64,000 bases of DNA from Branchiostoma floridae (taxonomy: Eukaryota > Chordata > Leptocardii > Amphioxiformes > Branchiostomatidae). The first letter of the stretch is position 1; every line of letters begins with the position of its first letter. Positions 1 to 61,300 of the stretch are shown piece after piece. The notes under the pieces were generated by a model that did not search any database, was not told the DNA's origin, and saw nothing but the letters and a program-made list of their open reading frames with translations. The DNA lies in the NCBI RefSeq assembly GCF_000003815.2, contig NC_049991.1:10362821-10426820 (forward strand), in the 5' to 3' direction. A program made the translations under genes and the position numbers.

Positions 1-1256
1 AGAAAGTACAGCATTATTGCAATCACTTCTATGTCCTCTCAAACACATTTCTGGCTAGCTATGGCCCGTTTTGGAAGCTAGAATATGACATTTCTTGGAT
101 TACCACATACTTATGCTATGGCAAAGTCGGGACTCTTAGTTAAACAAAAAACAACAAAATTATATAAACCTTTAACAGCGACACCTACCGGAGTGAGTGT
201 CCTTTCTTACTGACTGTCTTGCAAAATCCTACATTTTTACCGAACTAAAAGCCTCATCGACATTAAACGAAACATAGAAGTTTGTCCAAACTCATTTCAA
301 GTGTACTAAAATGTCAACGCGTCGTACTTCAAGTGACAAATTTAACAGACAGCAAGGCGTAATAACGTCAGAGTGCCATAAAGTTGACATATGCGGTCAT
401 ATGGAAGCCAGAGCGGGTTTCAACCATTTTAATCGCATTAATAATAATAGCTTCATCGACAATAAACTAAACATACAACTTCAACCAAACTCTTTTCAAT
501 TACACCGGTGTGTCTACGCTACGTACTCAAAGTGACAAATTTAACAGACATCAATGCGTAATGACGTCAGGGTACAATAAAGTTGACATATGCGGTCAGA
601 AGGAAGTCAGGCCGGGTTTTCCATGCTATTGACCTAATTGAAAATTCATATACAATACACTAAACATACAACTTCAACCAACCCCCTTCTGTTTACACCG
701 GAGTGTCTCCGCTACGTATTACTAGTCTCAAATTTAACAGACATCGAGGCGTAATGATGTCAGAGTGCCATAAAATTGACATATGCGGTCAGAAGAAAGT
801 CAGGGCGGCTTTTCCACTGTTTTGACCTAATTCAAAAAGCCATAGACAATAAACTAAACATACAACTTCGACCAAACTCTTTTTCATCACACCGGTGTGT
901 CTACGCTACGTACTCAAAGTGACAAATTTAACAGACATCAATAGGTAATGACGTCAGGGTATCATAAAGTTGACATATGCGCTCAGAAGCAAGTCAGGGC
1001 GGCTTTTCCACTGTTTTGACCTAGTTCATAAAGCCATAGACAATAAACTAAACATACAACTTCGACCAAACTCTTTTTCCTCACACCTGTGTGTCTACGC
1101 TACGTACTCAAAGTGACAAATTTAACAGACATGAATGGGTAATGACGTCAGGGTACCATAAAGTTGACATATGCGCTCAGAAGGAAGTCATGGCGGCTTT
1201 TCCACTGTTTTGACCTAGTTCATAAAGCCATATACACTAAACTAAACATATAACTT
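1..1256 (+). repeat. Left inverted arm: outer terminal segment plus ~5 tandem ~190 bp units
   Basis: Bases 1-300 are a unique outer segment that matches the reverse complement of ~10976-11246. From ~300 a ~190 bp unit repeats. It contains a conserved block with AAATTTAACAGACATC, then a TGACGTCA palindrome, then AAAGTTGACATATGCG, then TAAACATACAACTT. The array runs into an assembly gap. Confidence 0.85.
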
Positions 1257-1551
1257 NNNNNNNNNNNNNNNNNNNNNNNNNNNNNNNNNNNNNNNNNNNN
1301 NNNNNNNNNNNNNNNNNNNNNNNNNNNNNNNNNNNNNNNNNNNNNNNNNNNNNNNNNNNNNNNNNNNNNNNNNNNNNNNNNNNNNNNNNNNNNNNNNNNN
1401 NNNNNNNNNNNNNNNNNNNNNNNNNNNNNNNNNNNNNNNNNNNNNNNNNNNNNNNNNNNNNNNNNNNNNNNNNNNNNNNNNNNNNNNNNNNNNNNNNNNN
1501 NNNNNNNNNNNNNNNNNNNNNNNNNNNNNNNNNNNNNNNNNNNNNNNNNNN
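1257..1551. other. Assembly gap (295 N)
   Basis: A run of N inside the left repeat arm. The repeat unit is in one orientation before it and the opposite orientation after it, so the join is uncertain. Open frames crossing it are meaningless. Confidence 0.99.
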
Positions 1552-1679
1552 TAAGTGGGGGGGGGCATCAGAAAAACAGCAGAGTAAACCAAAACGGCCT
1601 TGTCCCAGTAATGGAGAGTTAAATAATGCACCCTCAAACACGTATGTTAAGCACTCCCCGGTGTGAGGGATAAGAAGCT

Positions 1680-2885
1680 TAATGGAAAATGTATGTTTAA
1701 GTTTTTGTCCATGGCCTTTTGGACTAGGTCAAAACAGTGGAAACCCCGCCCTGACTTGCTTCTGAGCGCATATGTCAACTTTATGGTGCCCCGACGTCAT
1801 TACGCATGAATGTCTGTTAAATTTGTCACTTTCAGTACGTAACGTAGACACCCCGGTATAAATGGAAAGAGTTTGGTCGAAGTTGTATGTTTAATTTATT
1901 GTCGATGAAGCTTTATGAGCTAGGTCAAAACAGTGGAAAAGCCGCCCTGACTTCCTTCTGAGCGCATATGTCAACTTTATGGTACCCTGACGTCATTACC
2001 CATTCATGTCTGTTAAATTTGTCACTTTGAGTACGTAGCGTAGACACACAGGTGTGAGGAAAAAGAGTTTGGTCGAAGTTGTATGTTTAGTTTATTGTCT
2101 ATGGCTTTATGAACTAGGTCAAAACAGTGGAAAAGCCGCCATGACTTCCTTCTGAGCGCATATGTCAACTTTATGGTACCCTGACGTCATTACCCATTCA
2201 TGTCTGTTAAATTTGTCACTTTGAGTACGTAGCGTAGACACACCGGTGTAATGAAAAAGAGTTTGGTCGAAGTTGTATGTTTAGTTTATTGTCTATGGCT
2301 TTATGAACTAGGTCAAAACAGTGGAAAAGCCGCCCTGACTTCTTTCTGAGCGCATATGTCAACTTTATGATACCCTGACGTCATTACGTATTGATGTCTG
2401 TTGAATATGTCACTTTGAGTACGTAGCGTAGACACACCGGTGTGATGAAAAAGAGTTTGGTCGAAGTTGTATGTTTAGTTTATTGTCTATGGCTTTATGA
2501 ACTAGGTCAAAACAGTGGAAAAGCCGCCCTGACTTCCTTCTGAGCGCATATGTCAACTTTATGGTACCCTGACGTCATTACGTATTGATGTCTGTTAAAT
2601 TTGTCACTTTGAGTACGTAGCGTAGACACCCCTGTGTAAATGGAAAGAGTTTGGTCGAAGTTGTATGTTTACTTTATTGTCAATGACCCTTTCAATTAGG
2701 TCAAAACAGTGGAAAACCCGCCATGATTTCCTTGTCAACTTTATGGTACCCTGACGTCATTACGCATTGATGTCTGTTAAATTTGTCACTTTGAGTACGT
2801 AGCGTCAACACACCGGTGTAAATGGAAAGAGTTTGGTCGAAGTTGTATGTTTACTTTATTGTCAATGACCCTTTCAATTAGGTAG
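1680..2885 (-). repeat. Second left array of ~190 bp units, reversed orientation
   Basis: About six units of the same ~190 bp repeat, now in the reverse orientation. The GGTCAAAACAGTGGAAAA block recurs near 1924, 2117, 2310, 2506 and 2699. The array stops at ~2885 without the outer terminal segment. It has the same orientation as the right arm, so with 1-1256 it forms a local palindrome around the N gap. Confidence 0.85.
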
Positions 2886-3225
2886 CTAGCGCAATTACCC
2901 CCTATACGCCGCACGGAAAATGACTCCCACGCGTTTACGGGCCGCGATCGGCCAACTAAAAAAATTCTAGAAAAATAAATTTAATTTTCACAATCACCAA
3001 ACTTCTTGTGATTTCTAATCAATATCTTATCTCTATGTGTACTAAATTTCTTTTAAAAATAAGTCACCGATGTTGAGTTAGAGCGTGATTAATGGGCAGG
3101 TACGCCCGCCCGGCGCCCGGCGCTCGCCGCGGACCCCATTTCCGCCGAACGCAAAAATGCGTTCCACACTTTGACCCCGTTTCCGCCGGATATAGCAAGA
3201 ATTATGGTCCATGGAAACGTCATGA

Positions 3226-3283
3226 ATATATAATAGAGGCCCTGAGCTACATTTTGGTGTGTGATGCAAATCTCTACGTGCAA
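3226..3283 (+). promoter_or_regulatory. Possible TATA box and short 5' leader exon of the element gene
   Basis: A TATA-like stretch (ATATATAATA, ~3226-3235) lies ~50 bp upstream of a good 5' splice site (CAAG then GTAAGTCC, ~3283). A matching acceptor (TTGTTATAG, followed by GCACCATGG) lies just before the long open frame at 4332. A short non-coding first exon spliced to the coding exon is therefore plausible, but the N gap at 3839-4163 lies in the proposed intron. Confidence 0.3.
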
Positions 3284-3838
3284 GGTAAGTCCATTTATGG
3301 CTCCTTCAAAAACTTTGGTCGCTGTTTTTGCCTCTATGGAAATCAGTTATATATTTGCATCACCAGAAATACGATAGAACATGTTTTTAGCTTTAATTTG
3401 ATACCATATTTGTAGCATTAAGTTGGGGATATAGTGGCGGAAATGGAATTTTCCGCGCTGTGCCATGGCGCGAAATCGGCCATGCGTGAGACTTGGGAGG
3501 GGGGCGTGGCGAACGTAACTATAGTAAGGTGATTTCTTACACGTTTCTCGTCTTGAAAATCCCAGTAATTAATTTTGACACATATTATGAACCTAGATGG
3601 TATCGAGTCCAGAATCGAGAAGTATTGTTGATGAGTTAATGAGTTTAGCGGCAAGTAGGTGTATTGTAACGTTGTAAATATGCCTGTTTGGAAAAAGGAG
3701 GGGATTGTCAACACATGCAGGATTCTGTAATCTTTGCCTGCTGGTTTATTGCCTTTCACTTATTGTCAATTTTGTGCTTACATGTAGGTTGTCCTGAGGT
3801 TCAGTGATCCAAGAGAAACCTGTGGACTTCTTCAAAAA

Positions 3839-4163
3839 NNNNNNNNNNNNNNNNNNNNNNNNNNNNNNNNNNNNNNNNNNNNNNNNNNNNNNNNNNNNNN
3901 NNNNNNNNNNNNNNNNNNNNNNNNNNNNNNNNNNNNNNNNNNNNNNNNNNNNNNNNNNNNNNNNNNNNNNNNNNNNNNNNNNNNNNNNNNNNNNNNNNNN
4001 NNNNNNNNNNNNNNNNNNNNNNNNNNNNNNNNNNNNNNNNNNNNNNNNNNNNNNNNNNNNNNNNNNNNNNNNNNNNNNNNNNNNNNNNNNNNNNNNNNNN
4101 NNNNNNNNNNNNNNNNNNNNNNNNNNNNNNNNNNNNNNNNNNNNNNNNNNNNNNNNNNNNNNN
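3839..4163. other. Assembly gap (325 N)
   Basis: A run of N between the left array and the element's coding exon. It may hide promoter or 5' exon sequence. Confidence 0.99.
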
Positions 4164-4331
4164 TAGTTAGGCTGCTGGTCTTGTATAATTAACTTTTATG
4201 GTGATTAATATTGCCAATAATATACAGTAAGCATCCTATCCACAGTTTCATATTGTAAATATGATCAATATTCGATGACATGGATAGACTATACTAATTT
4301 CTGTTTATATTATGTGATTGTTATAGGCACC

Positions 4332-7300
4332 ATGGCAACAGTCGGGGATGTGCTTGACTTCTGCGGCCAGCACAAACAGCTAAAGATGAAAGAGAAGATG
4401 GAGCTGCTCAAGGAAACGTTCTCTTCCATTGACAGCAGAGCAGAACCAAAACAGCTCTGGAACAGTGTCACACGCGTTGCAGGGAGAAGAAAGAAATTGT
4501 CAAAGGAGAAAAAACACCAGAAACTGAAATCTCTCTTAAAAGAGACTTTCAATTCCCCAAAGCAAAACCAAACTCCACAGTCTCGAGCTCCATGGACACC
4601 GAGAAAGAAGAAACTTGCAAAGCATCTGGAAGAAGCAAGAAAGGCCAACAAACATTTGAAGAAGAAACTGGGTAGTGCAGAAGAATGGAAGAACAATATG
4701 CAGTGTGTGCAAACAGAGCTGGAGACTTTGATCAGTGAATATACATCTGCTGTGCAAGAATGCGACAAGATCACTGAGGACACAGAAGAGAAAATGAAAC
4801 TGATGAACAACAACAATGGCGAGCTGGAAAAGTACATCAAGGAAATAGAGAATGCTTTTGACTCTCAATCAAAAAAGTTACAAGACGCAACAGAAAAACT
4901 GAGCAAGTGGAATGTAAGGAACTTCAACAAAAGGGAGAAGTCAAAAAAAAAAAAGATCTCAATCTGTGAAGAAAAACTGAAACATCAAGACACACTCATA
5001 GCAGAGATGATGGCAAGGATTAAGGACTTAGAAGTCACCAACAAAAAGCTGACTACAGAAAAGGTCCACCTACAGAAGAAAGCCTCAACACTGAAAGCAA
5101 AGCTGAAAATGGAAAGTCCACAAGCTATTGTGTGTGCTAACACAGAAAAGATAGACAAACTGGAGCAAGAGAAGTGTGAGCTAGAGGAAGAAAACACCAT
5201 GTTAGAAGATACAGTGAAAGCAATGAAAACACTTGAAACCAAACATGACAAGGGATATACAAACCAGATAAGGGAAGTTGTGATAGATCTGCTGTCCAAA
5301 AATGTGAGTGTCAAGCATGTTAGTTCTGTGATAAGAACAGTTTTGGAGAAACTGGCAAAGATGAACATCACAGGACATTTACCTTCTGAGACTTTGATCA
5401 GAACTTTGGCTGTTGAAGGACGAATGCTCTCAGTGATACAGGCAGGCAAAGCCATGCTGGAGGGTCACGCAACACTTCACAATGACGGGTCAACACAGGA
5501 GAAAAAGAAATTCAACACTACAAGTGTGACCACTCCATCAGGAACCCTGTCACTAGGACTCTACGAGATGGCCGAGGAGAATGCACAGGCTGTGTTCGAA
5601 GGCAACAAGCAGACGCTGAAGGAGGTAGCGGAAATTCTGGCAAAATTTGACAATACTGACCCAGAAATGGAACTGACCAATCTGTTATCAATGATAACAT
5701 CAACGATGTCGGACAGAGGTTCAGTAATGAAAGCATTTAACAGTGCTTTTGAAGAGTGGAGGGGGGAGATAATCAAGGACACGTCAAGCTCAGTAGAGAA
5801 AGTCAATAACTTTTATTGTTATATGCACGTCCTTATCAACATGGCTTCTGTTGCACTTGATGCATTAAAATGTTTCGATGTGTGCGCCATTGAAAAGAAA
5901 GGCATGCCAACCAAAAATGGAAGGGCTGTCACTGAGGATGCACTGTATGCAGCTTGTCGCACGTTTCAAAAACAGTGCGATGAAAGAACGGGGCAAGCGG
6001 CGGCTTTCCAGGCTTTCCTGTATGGGAAGGAGCCAGGTAGAAAGTGCCAGTTTTCCAAATTAATCGGGAATAGATGCAACATCCAATTTGTGAATGGTGC
6101 GGCCTTCTTCTTTCACTTGGAGGACATGAGGGAGTTCTTAGAAATCTGGAAAGGTGGTGGTACCCTAAGTATGTCCCACTCTTGTCTGCAGCAGCACTTA
6201 TCCAACAAAGTTGCTATCGCTGGATGCAGGGCGCTAGGTATCCTGGAGAAGAGAGTGACCACGCCAATGTGGCGAGAAATCTTAGCTGCTACCAGCATCC
6301 TCGATCTGAACAGACAGTCTCTCACAATGAGAGCGGAATTCCTTAGACTATCAGAGGACTCATCAGAACTACTTGTGCCTGACAATAAAACCATATTTCC
6401 CGGCCGGGAGGTGGTTGATGAGGATGATGTGTGCCATGCCCTTTTTAAAGATTCTGAGGATGCTGAGCTGGATGCTCTCACCATCAGTGCCCTGGAGCTG
6501 ATCTTCTCGTCCTGGGTGATTCTGATAGAAAAACAGCTCACCGACTACTTACCTGGAGGAATGTATGATAATCCTGATGAAAACCTGAAACAGAAATCTA
6601 AACATGTTCCCACAACAAATGTCACATGTGAAAGAAGCATTGGGTACCGAAATAGGTTACACCAGCTGAAACCATCTGCAAAGACCTTACACATCGAATC
6701 ACTGCTTCTACTCTCTACAAACCACACAGTAGACTGGCTGGGAAAACTGTCTGAAGATGACAAAGAACGTGCATTAGAGACAGCTCGAAAAGCTGCTCCA
6801 GGATGCATCAAGAAGCAGAAAGAACGAGAACAGGAAATTCTGAGCCACCGCCTCGAACTGCTGAGGCAGAAACAAGATGAGAAGGAAAGAAAGATAAGAA
6901 GGGTATCCCAGGAGAAATCCAAGATTTGTGAAGCAGTAAGGCAAGATGGCGGTGAATGGAAGACTCCAGAGGAGGTTGAGCAGAGACTCTGTGAGTGTGC
7001 AACTGATTCAAAGAAGAAAGAGAAGATCCTTGCACAGCTCAGATTTCACAAAGTTGTTCTGGAGGACCCTCTACCAACAGACAAAAGATACTTGGTTCAA
7101 CAACAGATGACTGTGAATGGGTCGGTGAAAAAGTTTTCAATGTCAGAACTAAAGGAAAACTTGCTTGAGCTGATAGGTATGAACACTTTAAGATGCAATA
7201 ACAACAATGAGGAGGATGAAGATGAGGACTCAGATCAGGAAGTTGAACAGGGTACAAAGTACATGGCTATGGACAGACGACTAGAACTGATACAGGCAGA

Positions 7301-7349
7301 AAAAGCAAAACTGAAGAAGAAGCGAGACAAGCAAAGAGAGAGACTTTAG
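4332..7349 (+). CDS. Unrecognised 1005-aa coiled-coil protein of the giant foldback element
   Basis: A single uninterrupted 1005-codon frame. I start it at the ATG of CACCATGG (4332), 6 bases after an acceptor-like AG; an in-frame ATG 57 bases upstream extends the frame but has no comparable context. Residues ~30-330 are Lys/Glu-rich and mostly coiled coil. Residues ~350-760 look globular. Near residue ~770 is CERSIGYRNRLHQLKPSA, followed by a hydrophobic ESLLLLSTN and TVDWL. Next come a second Lys/Arg/Glu-rich helix and an acidic NNNNEEDEDEDSDQE run. The C-ER-L-E-LLLL spacing faintly recalls the hAT transposase C-terminal dimerisation region. I cannot locate a catalytic DDE triad and do not assign a class. 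Its position between the inverted arms suggests that it mobilises or packages the element. The intact frame suggests recent activity. Confidence 0.7.
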   Translation: MATVGDVLDFCGQHKQLKMKEKMELLKETFSSIDSRAEPKQLWNSVTRVAGRRKKLSKEKKHQKLKSLLKETFNSPKQNQTPQSRAPWTPRKKKLAKHLEEARKANKHLKKKLGSAEEWKNNMQCVQTELETLISEYTSAVQECDKITEDTEEKMKLMNNNNGELEKYIKEIENAFDSQSKKLQDATEKLSKWNVRNFNKREKSKKKKISICEEKLKHQDTLIAEMMARIKDLEVTNKKLTTEKVHLQKKASTLKAKLKMESPQAIVCANTEKIDKLEQEKCELEEENTMLEDTVKAMKTLETKHDKGYTNQIREVVIDLLSKNVSVKHVSSVIRTVLEKLAKMNITGHLPSETLIRTLAVEGRMLSVIQAGKAMLEGHATLHNDGSTQEKKKFNTTSVTTPSGTLSLGLYEMAEENAQAVFEGNKQTLKEVAEILAKFDNTDPEMELTNLLSMITSTMSDRGSVMKAFNSAFEEWRGEIIKDTSSSVEKVNNFYCYMHVLINMASVALDALKCFDVCAIEKKGMPTKNGRAVTEDALYAACRTFQKQCDERTGQAAAFQAFLYGKEPGRKCQFSKLIGNRCNIQFVNGAAFFFHLEDMREFLEIWKGGGTLSMSHSCLQQHLSNKVAIAGCRALGILEKRVTTPMWREILAATSILDLNRQSLTMRAEFLRLSEDSSELLVPDNKTIFPGREVVDEDDVCHALFKDSEDAELDALTISALELIFSSWVILIEKQLTDYLPGGMYDNPDENLKQKSKHVPTTNVTCERSIGYRNRLHQLKPSAKTLHIESLLLLSTNHTVDWLGKLSEDDKERALETARKAAPGCIKKQKEREQEILSHRLELLRQKQDEKERKIRRVSQEKSKICEAVRQDGGEWKTPEEVEQRLCECATDSKKKEKILAQLRFHKVVLEDPLPTDKRYLVQQQMTVNGSVKKFSMSELKENLLELIGMNTLRCNNNNEEDEDEDSDQEVEQGTKYMAMDRRLELIQAEKAKLKKKRDKQRERL

Positions 7350-7383
7350 GAATTTGTTTGATAATCATTATATTTGTTGTAAT

Positions 7384-7462
7384 ATGGCTTTGATCAGAAG
7401 ACTTGAACTGATAAAGCAAAAGTGAAGAAGCGAGACAAGCAAAGAGAGACAGTAGGAATTTG
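7384..7462 (+). pseudogene. Degenerate tandem copy of the 3' end of the element gene
   Basis: This segment repeats the last coding segment and stop region (about 7264-7360): ATGGCTTTGATCAGAAGACT, a shortened AAGCAAAAGTGAAG, then GCGAGACAAGCAAAGAGAGA and AGGAATTTGTT. It carries small deletions and an in-frame stop, so it is a local duplication and not a separate gene. Confidence 0.75.
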
Positions 7463-7559
7463 TTAATATTTGATATAATATATATAGATACAATAGTATT
7501 CACATATTTCTGCAGAAAAAAGATATGACTTGTAAAAATTATGTAATTAATATGCAAAA

Positions 7560-8400
7560 AAGTAATTGATGTTAATTATTTATTTATGAAGTGGATGACA
7601 AAAAGTTTAATAAGTAATCTTGAAGTAATTAAGTCAAAAACAGTTGAAAACATAGTATAAGTGCATTTTAATTTTCTCAAACCCATGAATTGATTGGATT
7701 ATTATTTATTATATGCATTATTGGTCTAATTAATATGCAAATATGCTAAATGATTATACAACAAGAATTGGTATGATAACTTGAACTTGCTGGTCACCCA
7801 TGCTGTGTCAGCTGCCAATTGTATAATATATGTATTTTTTTAAATGTATCTAATGTAATTTATGAAAGCTGCAGTGATTAGAATGCTGAAATTGGATTAT
7901 TTATATTATTTACCTTATAAATATTGCAAAACACTAATCATATACTAATTAGAATACTTAAAATCATCTATTTGTTAGCTATATTGTGACAGCTGCCAGT
8001 TCCATTACTCTGTTTAGAGGTGGGCATAAAAAAAGTGTGTATGTAGATGATGTCTATCCAATTTGATGGTTTTGTCTAATTAATATGCAAATATGCAAAT
8101 CAGTCATTACATAAGAATTTAAATACAACTGACACTTTGCTGATCATGTAGTGACAGATGTCTGAGGTAACCTGAGAGAGAAATGTAGCCTGAATGTGTA
8201 GAGGATACTTGAATATAGTATGTAATATTAACCTAATTAGTATGCAGACATACTAATTTCAATAATTAACATAATCATTTACTAATTATAGACTAAGTGT
8301 ACTGTCTACTTGCTGGATTTGGTTAGACAGTTGCATCAACTTGAATGTCTGTTGGTGTTAAGAAAATAAATCTATGCTAATGATGCATATAGGGTGTGTG
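7560..8400 (+). repeat. Diverged AT-rich repeats downstream of the element gene
   Basis: The phrase CTAATTAATATGCAAATATG occurs at ~7735 and ~8073, with a weaker copy at ~8232. A second phrase, GACAGCTGCCA or a close variant, occurs at ~7808 and ~7988. These look like old tandem copies. Each contains ATGCAAAT octamer-like motifs. No coding potential is seen. Confidence 0.5.
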
Positions 8401-8640
8401 TAGTGTATTGATTTGCACTAATTACAGGTCCCTCCGGTGCCATTTGGGCCCCATTGAACTAATGATTAAGGTTTTCCACAAAAATACCCAAATTAATTAC
8501 TTCAAAATTTAATTTCTAGACTTAAGTTCATCCGATTTGAAATCCGAAAACGGCATTTTGTTCGGGGCTGCAAGAGCTATAATTTAAGATAGATTTCACT
8601 GTGTTATCACATTAGGAAAAAAATCACCTGTGCTAGCTNC

Positions 8641-11246
8641 TTTGGTGCAAACAGAAGGAGTTTGGTTGAAGTTGTATGTTTAGTTAATTGTGTATGAATC
8701 TTTCAATTAGGTCAATTGTGTGGAAAACCCGCCTTGACTTCCTTCTGACCGCATATGTTAACTTTATGGCACCCTGACGTCATCAGGCTTTGATGTCTGT
8801 TAAACATGAGACTAGTAATATATAGCATAGGCACTTCGGTGTAAACAGAAGGAGTTTGGTTGAAGTTGTATATGATTTTTTAATTAAATATAGTGGAAAA
8901 CCCGCCCTGACTTCATTCTCACTGCATATGTCAATTTTATGGCACTCTGACGTCAACACGCCTTGATGTCTGTTAAATTTGAGACTAGAAATATGTAGCA
9001 AAGGCACTTGGGGGGTAAACAGACGGAGTTTGGTTGAAGTTGTATGTTTAGTTTATTGTCTATGAATCTTTTAATTAGGTCAATAGAGTGAAAAACCCGC
9101 CCCGACTTCCTTCTGACCGCATATGTCAACTTTATGGCACTCTGACGTCATCACGCCATGATGTCTGTTAAATTTGAGACTAGCAATATGTAGCAGAGGC
9201 ACTTGGGTGTAAACAGACGGAGTTTGGTTGAAGTTGTATGTTTAGTTTATTGTCTATGAATCTTTTAATTAGGTCAATAGTGTGGAAAACCCGCCCAGAC
9301 CTCTTTCTGCCCGCTTATGGCAACTTTATGGTACTCTGACGTCATCACGCCATGATGTCTGTAAAATTTGAAACTAGCCATATGTAGCGGAGGCACTTGG
9401 GTGTAAACAGAAGGATTTTGGTCGAAGTTGTATGTTTAGTTTATTGTGTATGAATCTTTTAATTAGGACAATAGGGTGGAAAACCCGCCTTGACTTCCTT
9501 CTGACCGCATATATCAACTTTATGGCACCCTGACGTCATCAGGCTTTGATGTCTGTTAAATTTGAGACTAGTGATATATAGCATAGGCACTTCGGTGTAA
9601 ACAGAAGGAGTTTGGTTGAAGTTGTATGTTTAGTTTATTGTGTATGATTTTTCAATTAGGTCAATTGTGTGGAAAATCCGCCACGACTTCTTTCTGACCG
9701 CATATGTCAACTTTATGGTACTCTGACGTCATCAGGCTTTGATGTCTGTTAAATTTGAGACAAGTCATATGTAGCGGAGGCCCTTTGGTGTAAACAGAAG
9801 GAGTTTGGTTGAAGTTGCATGTTTAGTTTATTGTGTATGAATCTTTTAATTAGGACAATATAGTGGAAAACCCGCCATGACTTACTTCTCACCGCACATG
9901 TCAACTTTATCGCACTCTGACCTCAACACGCCTTGATGTCTGTTAAATTTGAGACTAGTAATATTTAGCGGAGATACTCTTGTGTTAACAGAAGGAGTTT
10001 GGTCGAAGTTGTATGTTTAGTTTATTGTGTATGAATCTTTTATTTATAGGACAATAGGGTGGAAAAGCCGCCTTGACTTCCTTCTGACCGCATATGTCAA
10101 TTTTATGGCACCCTGACGTCATCAGGCTTTGATGTCTGTTAAATTTGAGACTATTAATATATAGCATAGGCACTTCGGTGTAAACAGAAAGAGTTTGGTG
10201 GAAGTTTTATGTTTAGTTAATTGTTTATGATTTTTTTGAATTAGGTGAGAACAGTGGAAAACCCGCCATGATTTCCTTGTCAACTTTATGGTACCCTGAC
10301 GTCATTACGCATTGATGTCTGTTAAATTTGTCACCTTGAGTACGTGACGTAGACACGCCAGTGTACTTTAAAAGAGTTTGGTCGAAGTTTTATGTTTAGT
10401 TTATTGGGTATGACTTTTTGAATTACGTCAAAACAGTGGAAAACCCGCCATGACTTTCTTCTGACCGCATATGTCAATTTTATGGCACTCTGACGTCATT
10501 ACGCCTCGATGTCTGTTAAATTTGAGACTAGTAATACGTAGCGCAGCGGAGACACTCCGGTGTAAACAGAAGGGGGTTGGTTGAAGTTGTATGTTTAGTG
10601 TATTGTATATGAATTTTCAATTAGGTCAATAGCATGGAAAACCCGGCCTGACTTCCTTCTGACCGCATATGTCAACTTTATTGTACCCTGACGTCATTAC
10701 GCATTGATGTCTGTTAAATTTGTCATTTTGAGTACGTAGCGTAGACACACCGGTGTATTTGAAAAGAGTTTGGTTGAAGTTGTATGTTTAGTTTATTGTC
10801 GATGAAGCTATTAATGCGATTAAAATGGTTGAAACCCGCTCTGGCTTCCATATGACCGCATATGTCAACTTTATGGCACTCTGACGTTATTACGCCTTGC
10901 TGTCTGTTAAATTTGTCACTTGAAGTACGACGCGTTGACATTTTAGTACACTTGAAATGAGTTTGGACAATCTATGTTTAGTTTAATGTCGATGAGGCTT
11001 TTAGTTCGGTAAGAATGTAGGATTTTGCAAGACAGTAAGAAAGGACACTCACTCCGGTAGGTGTCGCTGTTAGAGGTTTATATAATTTTGTTGTTTTTTG
11101 TTTAACTAAGAGTCCCGACTTTGCCATAGCATAAGTATGTGGTAATCCAAGAAATGTCATATTTCAGCTTCCAAAACGTGCCATAGCTAGCCAAAAATGT
11201 GTTTGAGAGGACATAGAAGTGATTGCAATAATGCTGTATTTTCTCC
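8641..11246 (-). repeat. Right inverted arm: ~12 units of ~190 bp plus outer terminal segment
   Basis: From ~8641 to ~10975 the ~190 bp unit repeats in reverse orientation (TTGAAGTTGTATGTTTAGTT, then GTGGAAAACCCGCC, then CATATGTCAACTTTATGG, then TGACGTCA). Units diverge modestly from one another. The last ~270 bases match the reverse complement of the window start. Small open frames such as 8783-9007, 9985-10173 and 10723-10941 are by-products of the repeat. Confidence 0.85.
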
Positions 11247-11253
11247 CCTACAG

Positions 11254-11396
11254 GTACAATGGTACAGTCTGGCCCCCTCTCCCCGGCCTACTCTCCTCGG
11301 CCTGTCCTCCCCATATGGCTGGCACCGGGAGCGCTCCTTACCCCACTCCTGGCGGTCGACACTGTTCGAAGAAAGAGACACTCTGCGACTGAATGA
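11254..11396 (+). CDS. Possible terminal coding exon of an unidentified upstream gene
   Basis: A strong 3' splice site (TTTTCTCCCCTACAG, ending at 11253) is followed by GC-rich sequence with coding-like composition. One frame reads TMVQSGPLSPAYSPRP, then a hydrophobic VLPIWLAPGALLTPLLAV, then RRKRHSATE and a stop at 11394-11396. This would suit a membrane segment with a short basic cytoplasmic tail. Two other frames are also open for part of the stretch, so the frame is uncertain. No upstream exon is visible because the giant element fills 1-11246. I do not recognise the protein. Confidence 0.3.
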
Positions 11397-52334: not shown

Positions 52335-55300
52335 ATGAAGTGCGGGGTGAAACACGGAGTCCACCTGCTGGTGGTCCTGTTACACCTGGCGTCAGCGCAA
52401 GGCATCCAATATGTCTATGTCATCGGGGGATCTTACTACCGTGACCATACACTGCCTCTATCTAGAAGCCCGTACATAGCCAGCCATGAGATCATTGTGG
52501 GGGAAGAGGCCACGCTAACTATAGAGGCTGGTGTTGAAATCCTGTTCGACGAGGGGGTCGGCATGACCGTCGTCGGACAACTTCATGCGGTCGGTACGGC
52601 CGACAAACGCATCGTTTTCGATCGGAATGAAAATCCTCCAAACGACACCATCCGGAACATCACTCGGGACCCGAATGTGCGGCTGGTGGGGCCGACAGTG
52701 AACGAGGGGCGTCTGGAGATCCGCCATGACGGACAGTGGGGAACTGTTTGTCGTGATACAAGCTGGAGGTGGTCCGAAGCGCAGGTAACATTGACTTCGA
52801 CTAAAATCAGTCTGTAGACCTTGCAGCCTAAGATGTCGGAATGCGAAGCCCTTTCTTCCGTACATCTTCTTTTTTTACAGCAAACTTCCTTATTGACTCT
52901 CTTCTGTCTGTACCTATTTTCAGCTCTAGACTTGCAGCTCTCTCTGTAAATAGTTCCTGTTTGAATTTATCACAACGGTCGGTCTGACACAGCTGGTAAA
53001 AGGGCCAATGTATGATTGCAGTCTGACCGAATGACGACCACGGTGAGCATTTGTCATTTAAAGGCGTTTCACGCCGCTGTCACACAACACAAAAATCAAA
53101 TCAGCCGACGTGTCTGTGATCATGAGTTCTGAATGATGTTAGGATCAGTGATAAGCCCGTTGTTTTCTCAGTCATTGCGCGAAGTGCCCGAGCCCCGTTC
53201 ATTGTGATGCGTTAGATTTTCAGGAGAAACATACACGTGACCCTCCGTCGGTTTTAAAATCGGCTTCATGAATTCAATTGACCTTCTGATGATCAACAAA
53301 TACGACCGAAGTTTTATTGTCAACTGATGACTATGACACAGCTAGTATCAATCTACATCCCACAGGTAGCATGCCGACACCTGGGATTCACCACAGGAAG
53401 AGAGGACAGTCAGTACGGTAACGGCAAGGGCAGGATTACCATGAGCGACCTTTTCTGCTCTGGGAACGAGAAGAATCTGTACGAGTGTCGCTACAGAGAC
53501 ATGGGAACAGCTCCGGACTGTGGTGAGCACCTACTCAATCCTCTTCTCTTTTATTTCCTTGTGACTTATCTGAGAGTAACCAGTCGTAGACACTGTCACT
53601 GGCCAGTGAATACAAAGTACTGTTTACTAGACAGTCAAATTTCATGTGTACATATGCACATGCATTTTTATACTATGAGTTCGAAGAAGTCTCCAATGGA
53701 GTCACACATTGACTATTCAACGGAACGAATGTTTTCGTGTGAACTTAAAGTACCAATGCGATAACTCCACTAAGGTCATGTTTCCAACTACATTTTGTAT
53801 ACGTAGGTTGGTTTGTAAAAAGTTTGATTCAGAACGCCATGAATAGCTTTTGGTTGGTTGGTTAGTTGGTTGGTTGGTGGGTCGATCGGTCGGTTGGTTG
53901 GTTAATTGGTTGGCGGAGAAATTTCTTAAAAGTTCTGAAGAGATATCATTACCTTCGCCAAGAATGTTTTCGATTAAGGCCTCATGTTGTGTCCCTATAT
54001 GTAGGTCAACAGCATATAACTCGAGAAGCTGTATATGGATTTTAATGGTATTTGGTATTTGAGTAGCGGTTGCGGAAACCGGTCTTGTTCGAAAATGGTT
54101 GGCGTAGCCTTTTTCCGTCAGGACGGTAGCGGGCCGAATGTGTGCGTCCGCTTCCTTGTGTACAGCATAACTCGAGAAGCCTTGAATGGATCCTGATGAT
54201 ATTTGATAGCTGTACATGTGGGTAGGGGTCAGGAACGCATGGTCTTTTTAGCGAATGCCCACAAACGCCCACTCTAGAGAAGTCCGCGCTGCACGAATCT
54301 CATTTTTTTTGCTTGGAATATGTCCACGTTGTGCTCCCATGTATTAATCCTGAGTTTCAAGTCAATCCATTGACCCGAAGTGACATAAATCAAAGTTTTC
54401 GATTCTCGATGGTCTTTTTAGCGAGCGCCCAGCAAAATGTCTTTTTAGCGAATGCCCACTATATCCACAAAAATATCGGCCGTCGCGCAACGACACCTAA
54501 ACCTACCGCCACAAACATGTTCAAGATGGTGTCCCATTGATGTGTACGGAGTTTCCGTGCTTTACAAGCATTTTAAGTCCCTGTTTTTGGTCAAAATGTA
54601 CGGCGACGATACTACCATACTTTAACTATAGCAATTCAAAATGGCGGGCACTAGTCATGTGACCTCCTTGCGGGACTGTTCTATAAGTATCGCGGGAGGG
54701 ACTGTTGTAGCATAGCTTCTCATACAACCATTTTAGAGTGAATTCTGAACAAGATTTTCATTTCATAGTGCTATCATCTGACTGATATTTACAATGTGGT
54801 CATTTTTTCTGTGCTATTATTACCCAGGTTTGAGGAACTTAGTGCAAATTTGGATATTGATTCACCTCAGTGCCCAATTAATGTACAAAAGGCTCAGACA
54901 CATTAGTGTTATAAACCTGAATAGGGGCAGGTAACCAATACTAGAAAAACATAGCTATTTATTATTAACAATACTATTTACATTATAATAATAACTCTTC
55001 ACCAAACTGGACTTTTCTTATCTTTATTTATCACAGAAACATTGTTACAATGAGGATTTGATTAGATGAGTATCTGTTACAGTGTGTACAAACTTATTTC
55101 AAATACAAAAATGTATTTCGTTTCACTTCCTAAATGTTTTTGAAGTATTGGAAGAAGTTGACACATAAACAATATTAATTGCATTATTTATGTGCAGTAA
55201 AATGTGACCACATGCTATCAATAGCCTAATAAAATGTTGGAACATGGCACAAGCGGGCTCCTCTTCTGAGTACAGAAAGGAAATGTTTTATAACATTTAG

Positions 55301-58300
55301 TTATGACGTAGAAAATTTCCATTGTAAAATGTACCTTTATTAACATTTACAAACAAATTGTTTTTTCTCTTCTTAATAAATGACAACAATACAGGTAAGT
55401 AAGGTGTGTTTCCTTTTATAACAGGCCAGGTAAGACGCCGTACAGGTAAGTAAGGTGTGTTTCCTTTTATAGCAGACCAGGTAAGACACCGTACAGGTGA
55501 GTAAGGTGTGTTTCCTTGACTACAGACTAGGTAAGACACCTTACAGGTGAGCAACGTGTATTTCCTTTCATTACAGACCAGGTAAGACACCGTACAGGTG
55601 AGTAACGTGTATTTCCTTTGATTACAGACCAGGTAAGACACCGTACAGGTGAGTAAGGTGTGTTTCCTTGACTACAGACTAGGTAAGACACCGTACAGGT
55701 GAGTAACGTGTATTTCCTTTGATTACAGACTAGGTAAGACACCGTACAGGTGAGTAACGTGTATTTCCTTTGATTACAGACCAGGTAAGACACCGTACAG
55801 GTGAGTAAGGTGTGTTTCCTTTTATGACAGACTAGGTAAGACACCGTACAGGTAAGTAACGTGTATTTCCTTTCAGTACAGACCAGGTAAGACACTGTAC
55901 AGGTGAGTAAGGTGTGTTTCCTTGACTACAGACTAGGTAAGACACCGTACAGGTGAGTAACGTGTATTTCCTCTGATTACAGACCAGGTAAGACACCATA
56001 CAGGTGAGTAACGTATATTTCCTTTGATAACAGGCCAGGTAAGACACCATACAGGTAAGTAAGGTGTGTTTCTTTTTATAACAGACCAGGTATGACACCG
56101 TGCATGTGAGTAACGTGTATTTCCTTTGATTACAGACCAGGTAAGACACCATACAGGTGAGTAACGTGTATTTCCTTTCATTACAGACCAGGTAAGACAC
56201 CGCACAGGTGAGTAAGGTGTGTTTCCTTTGTCTATTGACCAGATAGGGTATTACACAGGTGAGTAAGGCGTCTTTCCTTTGCCTATATACCATATAGGCC
56301 ATTATACAGGTGAGTAAGGCGTCTTTCCTTTGTCTATAGACCAGATAGGGTATTATACAGGTGAGTAAAGCAACTTTCCTTTGCCTGTAGACCAGATAGG
56401 GTATTATACAGGTAAGTATGGTGTCTTTCCTTCGCCTATATACCAGATGGGGCATTATAAAGGTAAGTAAGGTGTCTTTCCCTTGTCTATATACCAGATA
56501 GGCCATTATACAGGTGGATAAGGTGTCTTTCCTTTGCCTATATACCATATAGGCCATTATACAGGTGAGTAAGGCGTCTTTCCTTTGTCTATAGACCAGA
56601 TAGGGTATTATACAGGTGAGTAAAGCAACTTTCCTTTGCCTGTAGACCAGATAGGGTATTATACAGGTAAGTATGGTGTCTTTCCTTCGCCTATATACCA
56701 GATGGGGCATTATAAAGGTAAGTAAGGTGTCTTTCCCTTGTCTATATACCAGATAGGCCATTATACAGGTGGATAAGGTGTCTTTCCTTTGCCTATAGAC
56801 CAGATAGGCCATTAAACAGGTGAGTAAGGTGTCTTTCCTTTGCCTATAGACCAGATAGGCCATTATACTGGTAAGTAAGATGTCTTTACTTTGCCTATAG
56901 ACCAGACAGGGTATTATACAGGTGAGTAAAGCAACTATCCTTTGCCTATAGACCAGATAGGTATTAAACAGGTGAGTAAAGCAACTTACTTACCTGTATA
57001 ATGCCCTATCTGGTCTATAGGCAAAGGAAAGACGCCTTACTCATCTGTGCGGTGTCTTACCTGGTCTGTAATCAAAGGAAATACACGTTACTCACCTGTA
57101 CGGTGTCTTACCTAGTCTGTAGTCAAGGAAACACACCTTACTCACCTGTACGGTGTCTTACCTAGTCTGTAGTCAAGGAAACACACCTTACTCACCTGTA
57201 CGGTGTCTTACCTGGTCTGTAATCAAAGGAAATACACGTTACTCACCTGTACGGTGTCTTACCTGGTCTGTAATGAAAGGAAATACACGTTGCTCACCTG
57301 TAAGGTGTCTTACCTAGTCTGTAGTCAAGGAAACACACCTTACTCACCTGTACGGTGTCTTACCTGGTCTGCTATAAAAGGAAACACACCTTAATTACCT
57401 GTACGGCGTCTTACCTGGCCTGTTATAAAAGGAAACACACCTTACTTACCTGTATTGTTGTCATTTATTAAGAAGAGAAAAAACAATTTGTTTGTAAATG
57501 TTAATAAAGGTACATTTTACAATGGAAATTTTCTACGTCATAACTAAATGTTATAAAACATTTCCTTTCTGTACTCAGAAGAGGAGCCCGCTTGTGCCAT
57601 GTTCCAACATTTTATTAGGCTATTGATAGCATGTGGTCACATTTTACTGCACATAAATAATGCAATTAATATTGTTTATGTGTCAACTTCTTCCAATACT
57701 TCAAAAATATTTAGGAAGTGAAACGAAATACATTTTTGTATTTGAAATAAGTTTGTACACACTGTAACAGATACTCATCTAATCAAATCCTCATTGTAAC
57801 AATGTTTCTGTGATAAATAAAGATAAGAAAAGTCCAGTTTGGTGAAGAGTTATTATTATAATGTAAATAGTATTGTTAATAATAAATAGCTATGTTTTTC
57901 TAGTATTGGTTACCTGCCCCTATTCAGGTTTATAACACTAATGTGTCTGAGCCTTTTGTACATTAATTGGGCACTGAGGTGAATCAATATCCAAATTTGC
58001 ACTAAGTTCCTCAAACCTGGGTAATAATAGCACAGAAAAAATGACCACATTGTAAATATCAGTCAGATGATAGCACTATGAAATGAAAATCTTGTTCAGA
58101 ATTCACTCTAAAATGGTTGTATGAGAAGCTATGCTACAACAGTCCCTCCCGCGATACTTATAGAACAGTCCCGCAAGGAGGTCACATGACTAGTGCCCGC
58201 CATTTTGAATTGCTATAGTTAAAGTATGGTAGTATCGTCGCCGTACATTTTGACCAAAAACAGGGACTTAAAATGCTTGTAAAGCACGGAAACTCCGTAC

Positions 58301-61300
58301 ACATCAATGGGACACCATCTTGAACATGTTTGTGGTGGTAGGTTTAGGTGTCGTTGCGCGACGGCCGATATTTTTGTGGATATAGTGGGCATTCGCTAAA
58401 AAGACATTTTGCTGGGCGTTCGCTAAAAAGACCATCGAGAATCGAAAACTTTGATTTATGTCACTTCGGGTCAATGGATTGACTTGAAACTCAGGATTAA
58501 TACATGGGAGCACAACGTGGACATATTTCAAGCAAAAAAAATGAGATTCGTGCAGCGCGGACTTCTCTAGAGTGGGCGTTTGTGGGCATTCGCTAAAAAA
58601 AAACGAAGGTGAAGTTCGATTATGGCCCCCTAGAGGCTCCCTAAGGTACTACAGCAAAACTTTTGACATCTCGTCTTCTAGACATGCTGTGGTCATGATT
58701 TTTGCAAATCAACAGCTAATTTGCATAATTAATGAGGAAAGTTCATAAATCCATGCCAACAGCATATAACTCGAGAAGCTATATTTGGTATTTGAGTAGC
58801 GGTTGCGGAAAGAAAGGTAGAGTTCAAAAATGGTTGGCGTAGCATTTTTCGCCAGGACGGTAGCGGGCGGAGTGTGTGCGTCCGTTTGTTTGTGGAATGC
58901 ATAACTCTAGAAGCCTTGAATGGATCCTGATAATATTTGGTAGGTGGGTAGGGGTCAGGAAAACAAAGGTTGAGTTCGATAATGGGCTCCCTAGCGGCTT
59001 CTTAAAGTACTGCAGCAAAACTTCAATTTTTGACATCTGGTGCTCTGAACATGCTGTGGTTGTGATTTTGGTAGATAGCCAAAGTGATGACTTACATAAT
59101 GTAATACTAATTCTGTAAATCAACAACTAATTTGCATAATTAAGGAGGAAAGTTCATAAACCCACTGAATTCCATGATAGGACTTTCAAACTTGTCACAT
59201 ATGTAGCTGAGTATGAGAAATGTCCAATACATATTAATAATGCAAATGGCGACCTCATTTACATAATTAATGTTGACAGATCATGATGATTCTTTGGTAT
59301 GAGATAGCCTAAGGGAAGACTTAGATAGTGCTATACTTATTATATATTGTATTTCAACAGCAAATTTACATGAGGAAAGGTTACAAATCCACTGCATTCC
59401 ATAATACGAGTTTGAAACTTGTCACATATGTAAAAGAGAAGGAGAGAAATGTCAATACATGTTAATTATGCAAATGACGACCTATCAAAGCCCCTATCAT
59501 AATTTACTATTCGGCCAGGCCGGAGTCTGGTAGAGACTACATTATTTTGACAAAGCACTATGAAAGTTGCGCTGGAAAGTATCACAACAGTGTACGTATT
59601 TCATTATCACCTTTGCCAAGAAGTTTCTGTTTTTGGTAGCGTTTGTGTGTTTGTTGGGAACACACGTTCATGTAGTCGTTTGCTATTGGGGTAAGTACTC
59701 TTTAGTAATACATGAAAAAGACCTTTAAGTCTTGAATAAAGGCATAATCATTTGGCGAAGGGATGTGTTCGTGGAATGCTAGTTGTTATGGATGTGATAG
59801 GAAAATTCCATGGAGACATATACGATGGCATAAGGAATCGTGGCATTCTTAATCAAGTGTGTGTCATTTGAAAGCGACCCCAACAAAAATTGCTTGCTTT
59901 TCCTATGAGATATGATGGTGCAGGTTACGTACTGACTTGCTTTTTCTCTGCTTGTTTTTCAAGCCTTCGCTCTCTTTGTATATTTTTTCAAGTCTTGAAT
60001 GAATTTTGTGACTTATGTTTTATGTGTTAGAAAGTTTTTTATTTGTGCAACGAAGATTGTTGCGGGGACTTCGGCGACTTTGGCATTATACTTGAATTTA
60101 TGACAGCGGGCAGAAAAGATTGTTTACCTTGTACGTACGCAGTGACGGCACACTCTAGTTGTCGTGTACCTGATGCCATAAAAACCATAATCAATAACTC
60201 GTTTACTTTGTTTCTTTGTTATACACAAGTAGTACCATCCTTAAATCAACATATCTGTAATACTAAAGGAACAGCCCAAAAGAAAATTTCTAAAGCAATT
60301 CTCCTGTTGTTGTTAGTTCCGGCTTTCATGACTGGTCACGACTGTACCGTTATCCGTCTAGTAATCTAGATAGTTTTCAAACATATCAGATCTGGTACAG
60401 AAATGTAGGGTTCGACGACATTGTTGTGTTCTGTGAGGTGGTCTTACCTTTGCGTCTTGTGGGGTAAAAGGAACAGGCGTCCATGGTAAAACATTTCAAA
60501 AGTTGCAAGAGTAAGCACTAAAATATTGTTGTGTAGTGGTATACGTGTAGTCGCCAACGTTTGTCGAGCTATTGTTAATTCTCAAGGCTGTGTCTGAGAA
60601 AAAGTCAGAAAGCTCGCTCAAAGCAATTACTTGTTTACTGACCGTACGGGATTTAGAGAGGGGGGCGGTGGGTTTGGGAAGGAAACTTTTGAAATATTTG
60701 AAATATTGAGCCGGGTGGGAGGGCATCGGAAAATTTATTTGACCTGTGGGGAGGGCCAAGGAAAATTTAGTTAGTCTGGTCTGCCAGCAAAATTCGTCCC
60801 TTAAAATGCAAGAAATGGCGTTTCCGAGGGTCAAGATTTCAAATGTTTCTGGACCTCCGCAAGGGATTGCCCGATGTCGGCGCAGGACACAGTGAAAATG
60901 CGTTGGGGTAGGGGCAAGGCTTATGCATCGCCCTCGATAACCCTTTTCACTTACAGAAATGTCATTAAACTCTAGATTAGCCTGCCAGCAAAATTTACCC
61001 CTAGGGCCATCAAAATGCAAGATATGGCGTTTCAGAGCTCGAGGGTAAAGATTTGCAAATTTCCCTGAATCCCTTTTGACCGTCTTCGTGCCTTTGGTGG
61101 TCGACATCGTGATAACTGTGTTCGGGGACGTTGCTCGCAATAACTGAAGCTGAAACCCTTGTATTTCTAAAAAAAATGCCATTAAACTTAGCTTTGTCTG
61201 CCAGAAAAATATCCATCAAACTGCAGAAAATAGCTTTAAAGAGGGTCAAGATTTCAAAATTTCCCCGGACCTCCCTGTTGACGCCGCGCGCCCTTCTCGC

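Follow-up and report, generated by a model that had tools for sequence, protein, structure and literature searches.

The analysed stretch, henceforth the window, is 64,000 nucleotides of the Branchiostoma floridae genome (C13:10362821-10426820 of contig NC_049991.1). It opens with inverted segments and tandem arrays of a ~194-bp unit surrounding one long open frame, and was compared with a genome of 513 Mb in 431 contigs. A sequence-only reading had described positions 1-11246 as a single autonomous foldback element carrying its own intact gene. The features of the locus are given below in window coordinates unless a contig position is stated.

1-1256, minus strand: left arm piece of the foldback, comprising a tip (1-215) and a 194-bp array (312-1256), with an assembly gap (run of N) on either side
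C13:10358199 onwards: second, outer left arm, upstream of the window
1257-1551: assembly gap where the array sense switches
1690-2882, plus strand: 194-bp array to the left of the gene-bearing transposon
2883-8639, plus strand: gene-bearing, putatively hAT-like transposon of ~5.76 kb, with ends TAGCTAGCGCA... and ...TGTGCTAGCT(N)
3839-4163: assembly gap within the gene-bearing transposon, 5' of the gene
4332-7349, plus strand: predicted transposase frame of 1005 codons
8640-10940, plus strand: 194-bp array of the foldback right arm
11030-11348, plus strand: foldback right tip, with terminus ...GGAGCGCTCCTTACCCCACTC
11349-11356, plus strand: 8-bp target duplication CTGGCGGT; the identical 8 bp precede the left end at C13:10358199

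The outer inverted segments that the sequence-only reading had observed (1-215 and 11030-11244) are 97% complementary. The arrays of ~190 bp that it placed on both sides of the gene are likewise real, with a unit of ~194 bp, but they are not mirror images. The array at 312-1256 runs in the minus sense and those at 1690-2867 and 8720-10915 in the plus sense; the inversion point is the gap at 1257-1551, left of the gene, and the two arrays flanking the gene share one sense. The array at 8640-10240, next to the gene-bearing transposon, is a distinct unit subtype that has ~75-80% identity to the left arrays and differs from the outer part of the same right arm.

The proposed ends and total length of ~11 kb had to be revised. 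A run of N of ~2.2 kb immediately precedes position 1, the true right end of the foldback lies past 11246 at 11348, and the partner of that end is found at C13:10358199 (window -4621), 4.6 kb outside the window. The foldback thereby spans 15,970 bp, of which 3,993 are N. Two left tips accompany the one right tip (window -4621 to 1256, with gaps between), the inner of them starting at window 1. The inner left tip is the better match to the right tip (97%, versus 87% for the outer), but it is with the outer one that the right tip has its target duplication in common. The extra left tip may stem from a tandem placement of allelic contigs, or from an arm that was duplicated or nested.

The locus very probably consists of two unrelated, stacked DNA transposons, a gene-less foldback and a 5.76-kb hAT-like cut-and-paste element. 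The outer element belongs to a foldback family with long inverted tandem-repeat arms, dispersed copies and target duplications. Each foldback is composed of a ~315-bp tip and a 194-bp tandem array, folded back on itself. A tip probe (11030-11246) gave at least 42 genome matches (40 of 69 candidates scored), and 13 outward-facing tip pairs, 1.5-11 kb apart, were present among the matches listed in addition to the window locus. Tip ends were tabulated in 18 rows; both ends were readable in 11 pairs, the other seven rows having one end or none. In every one of the 11 readable pairs (among foldback tips L021-L050), the terminal pentamer of one tip is of the GAGTG type and that of the opposite tip of the CATCT type (once TATCT), although the bodies are nearly palindromic. 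An exact 8-bp duplication flanks eight of these pairs (C18, C4, C17, C7b, C9, C10a, C11b and the window locus); the flanking 8 bp agree at six of eight positions in the C5 pair and are mismatched in the C13b and C11a pairs. The array lies on the inner side of the tip at 29 of 30 tip loci, three of which belong to the window locus (the exception is L039).

No foldback copy outside the window was found to carry the gene. The five copies fetched contained tips and folded-back arrays only and gave no gene-element match (expect value, E, 1e-5). Two of them, C4 and C11a, are gap-free, and the N totals of the remaining three (0.7-2.0 kb) are shorter than the whole gene element. Gene-element DNA of at least 60 bp was absent within 1.5 kb of all 30 tip loci and, with the window excepted, no gene match lay closer than 90 kb to any tip match among the matches listed, which are lower bounds.

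The gene-bearing transposon, in turn, occurs without arms. A 1-kb gene probe matched nine places in the genome, including the window, and the eight other loci were compared together with 10-20 kb of surroundings, using matches of at least 150 bp to map the ends. Where a left end is present (four copies), matches start at window 2878-2883, and the right boundary falls at 8638 in seven of the eight; C165 is only a fragment with no match of at least 150 bp, and the left part of C8 is broken by a gap. The ends read TAGC(TAGC)...GCAATT on the left and ...GTGCTAGCTA on the right, with an inverted similarity of ~10 bp as judged by eye. Exact 7-bp direct repeats flank three of five loci examined (C10, ACTACTG; C1a, GCAAAAA; C1b, CATATAT), and no 7-bp duplication flanks C9 or the window copy. 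Neither the foldback tip nor the 194-bp unit was detected at any of the eight other gene loci (E 1e-3), although the left side of C1c and of C8 is broken by N gaps.

Three copies of the gene-bearing transposon retain intact frames with a low ratio of nonsynonymous to synonymous divergence (dN/dS), and internal deletions are present in C9 and C7. The compared copy nearest to the window protein is C1b, with 99.5% amino acid identity and a synonymous divergence (dS) of 0.011. When the 5' part of the window copy (2883-4626) was compared with C10, C1a, C9 and C7, two forms ~12-18% apart were seen, while from ~4650 onwards the identity of C10 and C1a with the window copy is 97-99%; the copies are mosaics.

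The different ends and the different duplication lengths, 7 bp versus 8 bp, identify two separate elements. Foldback tips are of the GGGTAAGGAGCGC type and the ends of the gene-bearing transposon are TAGCTAGC; the gene element resembles the foldback tip in no more than two 11-bp matches (E 0.8). The sequence-only reading had proposed a genome search for copies with both arms and gene and had stated that gene copies without arms would defeat its model. The search returned no such combination at the eight other gene loci or in the five foldback copies, and armless gene copies together with gene-less arm copies refute the single element as a general model. Its assignment to foldback elements is retained for the tandem-repeat arms and dispersed copies and abandoned for the autonomous, gene-carrying part.

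The frame is uninterrupted, as had been reported, extending over 4275-7349 if the first ATG is taken (1024 amino acids) and over 1005 codons if translation starts at the ATG of 4332. The encoded protein, which the sequence-only reading could not place, now looks like a hAT-like DDE transposase, only distantly related to the hAT transposases, on the basis of conserved residues and predicted structure. The residues of its predicted RNase H-like core are D385, D461, C496xxH499 and E767; this D, D, CxxH, E set does not vary between the window protein, two copies nearly identical to it and five divergent paralogs. An AlphaFold model of the core, predicted with divergent paralogs in the alignment, has a Hermes-like RNase H fold with a helical insertion, and its alignment with Hermes by VIA-align extends to Hermes residue 609. 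Prediction of the whole protein from just four near-identical sequences gave a predicted local distance difference test score (pLDDT) of 35.9. The N-terminal ~300 amino acids probably form a coiled coil.

Sequence searches on their own did not place the protein. Pfam searches of the transposase returned only hits below cut-off, and no P-element transposase or THAP domain was matched. In six proteins, that of the window plus five paralogs, Pfam recognised neither a C-terminal hAT domain nor an N-terminal BED finger; the N-terminal part matched coiled coils instead, and at the C-terminal side the structural alignment does run on to Hermes residue 609. Sequence searches of the PDB yielded one match in the coiled-coil part (E 0.02) and otherwise none or a best E of 0.16; a further search returned coiled-coil proteins and other weak matches (best E 0.002). 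Of four pattern matches in IMG/VR none was a relative, and phage records gave no match. The genome itself contains a diverse family of transposase paralogs with 18-35% identity that retain the catalytic residues. Of 44 listed rows of gene relatives, 13 fall on contig C6, where diverged relatives and gene fragments seem to cluster at ~20.0-27.6 Mb.

Under the two-transposon explanation, the foldback would have inserted first, creating the CTGGCGGT duplication. It would be non-autonomous and mobilised in trans by some transposase that was not found. The hAT-like transposon would have landed later in the foldback array; this landing is only inferred, since a target duplication is not visible there. 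By analogy with Hermes, the transposase may bind the ends of its own transposon and excise it via a hairpin mechanism.

Several features of the assembly weigh against this stacking and would suit a scaffold misjoin, in which a gene-bearing transposon from elsewhere was joined to the foldback rather than lying inside it. The single N at 8639 is exactly the right junction, the window copy lacks a target duplication, and the array phase is unequal to the left and right of it; N also fills 1257-1551 and the stretch preceding position 1, and the single right tip is faced by two left tips. The left junction (2882/2883), however, is continuous and without N, and the window copy is identical to none of the compared copies, including the nearest one, C1b. 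We consider a misjoin unlikely.

It is less probable still that the gene-bearing transposon or a paralog is the autonomous partner that mobilises the foldbacks in trans. The diverse paralog family speaks for such a partner, as do the 8-bp duplications described as classical for hAT elements in the excerpt of PMC4763223, which match those of the foldback. The 7-bp duplications and TAGCTAGC ends of the gene-bearing transposon, and its near lack of similarity to the foldback tip, speak against it. One autonomous foldback with arms and gene moving together is rejected as extremely improbable: the two are adjacent in the assembly and an exact 8-bp duplication bounds the outermost ends, but the separate gene-element boundaries, the armless gene loci, the gene-less foldback copies, the unequal duplications and the 90-kb separation of listed matches outside the window rule it out. 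An FB/NOF-like autonomous foldback covering the whole 11 kb was likewise discarded, as the gene lying between the arms does not belong to the foldback.

FB/NOF and the sea urchin TU elements have inverted arms with tandem repeats, a trait that the outer element shares. In that analogy the protein lies between the arms, whereas here it is that of a separate transposon. In structure the foldback appears to resemble most closely Tetris of Drosophila virilis, which, in the excerpt of PMC4079207, has long inverted arms in which ~220-bp tandem repeats are accompanied by a flanking domain on the outside, with duplications of 8-9 bp in its three complete copies and no transposase found. The unit here, in contrast, is 194 bp, and a sizeable middle domain is absent from the gap-free C4 and C11a. 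Tm1, a Mutator-type foldback, is described in part of PMC3169594 with duplications of mostly 9 bp (range 8-10); each of the eight exact foldback duplications measures 8 bp, a length that differs from the usual one of Tm1 but by itself falls inside the Tm1 range.

The gene-bearing transposon combines its predicted Hermes-like RNase H fold, helical insertion and D/D/CxxH/E residues with 7-bp rather than 8-bp duplications, TAGCTAGC ends, a probable coiled coil at the N-terminus and a lack of Pfam matches to hAT or BED. Galileo, a Drosophila foldback-like element, shares the 7-bp length of its flanking sequences but its P-type transposase and its repetitive arms form a single element, according to the excerpt of PMC3573991; here arms and transposase are separate. 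The consulted part of PMC3706591 gives Dada elements duplications of 6-7 bp and places a DxxH/CxxH motif in their DDE core, lists a B. floridae Dada family, and describes introns in Dada genes except those of Perkinsus and targeting of small-RNA genes by many families. Compared by description only, the gene-bearing transposon resembles Dada in its 7-bp duplications and similar core motif, and differs in having a single open frame; zinc fingers on both sides of the core are a Dada criterion. None of the Tetris, Tm1, Galileo or Dada comparisons makes the window a single element. A literature search pairing amphioxus, transposable elements and foldback returned no match, which is not proof of absence from print.

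A second foldback-like structure is present in the window at 54245-58599. Its inverted arms of 1615 bp are 98.5% identical and contain 51-bp tandem arrays, its outer ends are TTTTTAGCGAATGCCCAC, and a clear target duplication was not seen.

Tentatively, the gene-bearing transposon could represent an undescribed, superfamily-level branch with the hAT fold, whose marks would be an N-terminal coiled coil, target duplications of 7 bp and TAGC termini, invisible to Pfam and diverse in this genome, and a paralog may supply the transposase of the 194-bp foldback. The locus holds one genuine foldback family and one intact hAT-like transposon of unfamiliar type. A tempting single-element reading is thereby corrected, under which two transposon families would have been annotated as one. 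The transposase branch, with intact copies, low dN/dS and no Pfam match above cut-off, allows one to ask how a hAT-type active site yields 7-bp rather than 8-bp staggered cuts, and the foldback family offers a natural case for how long tandem-repeat arms are maintained and moved.
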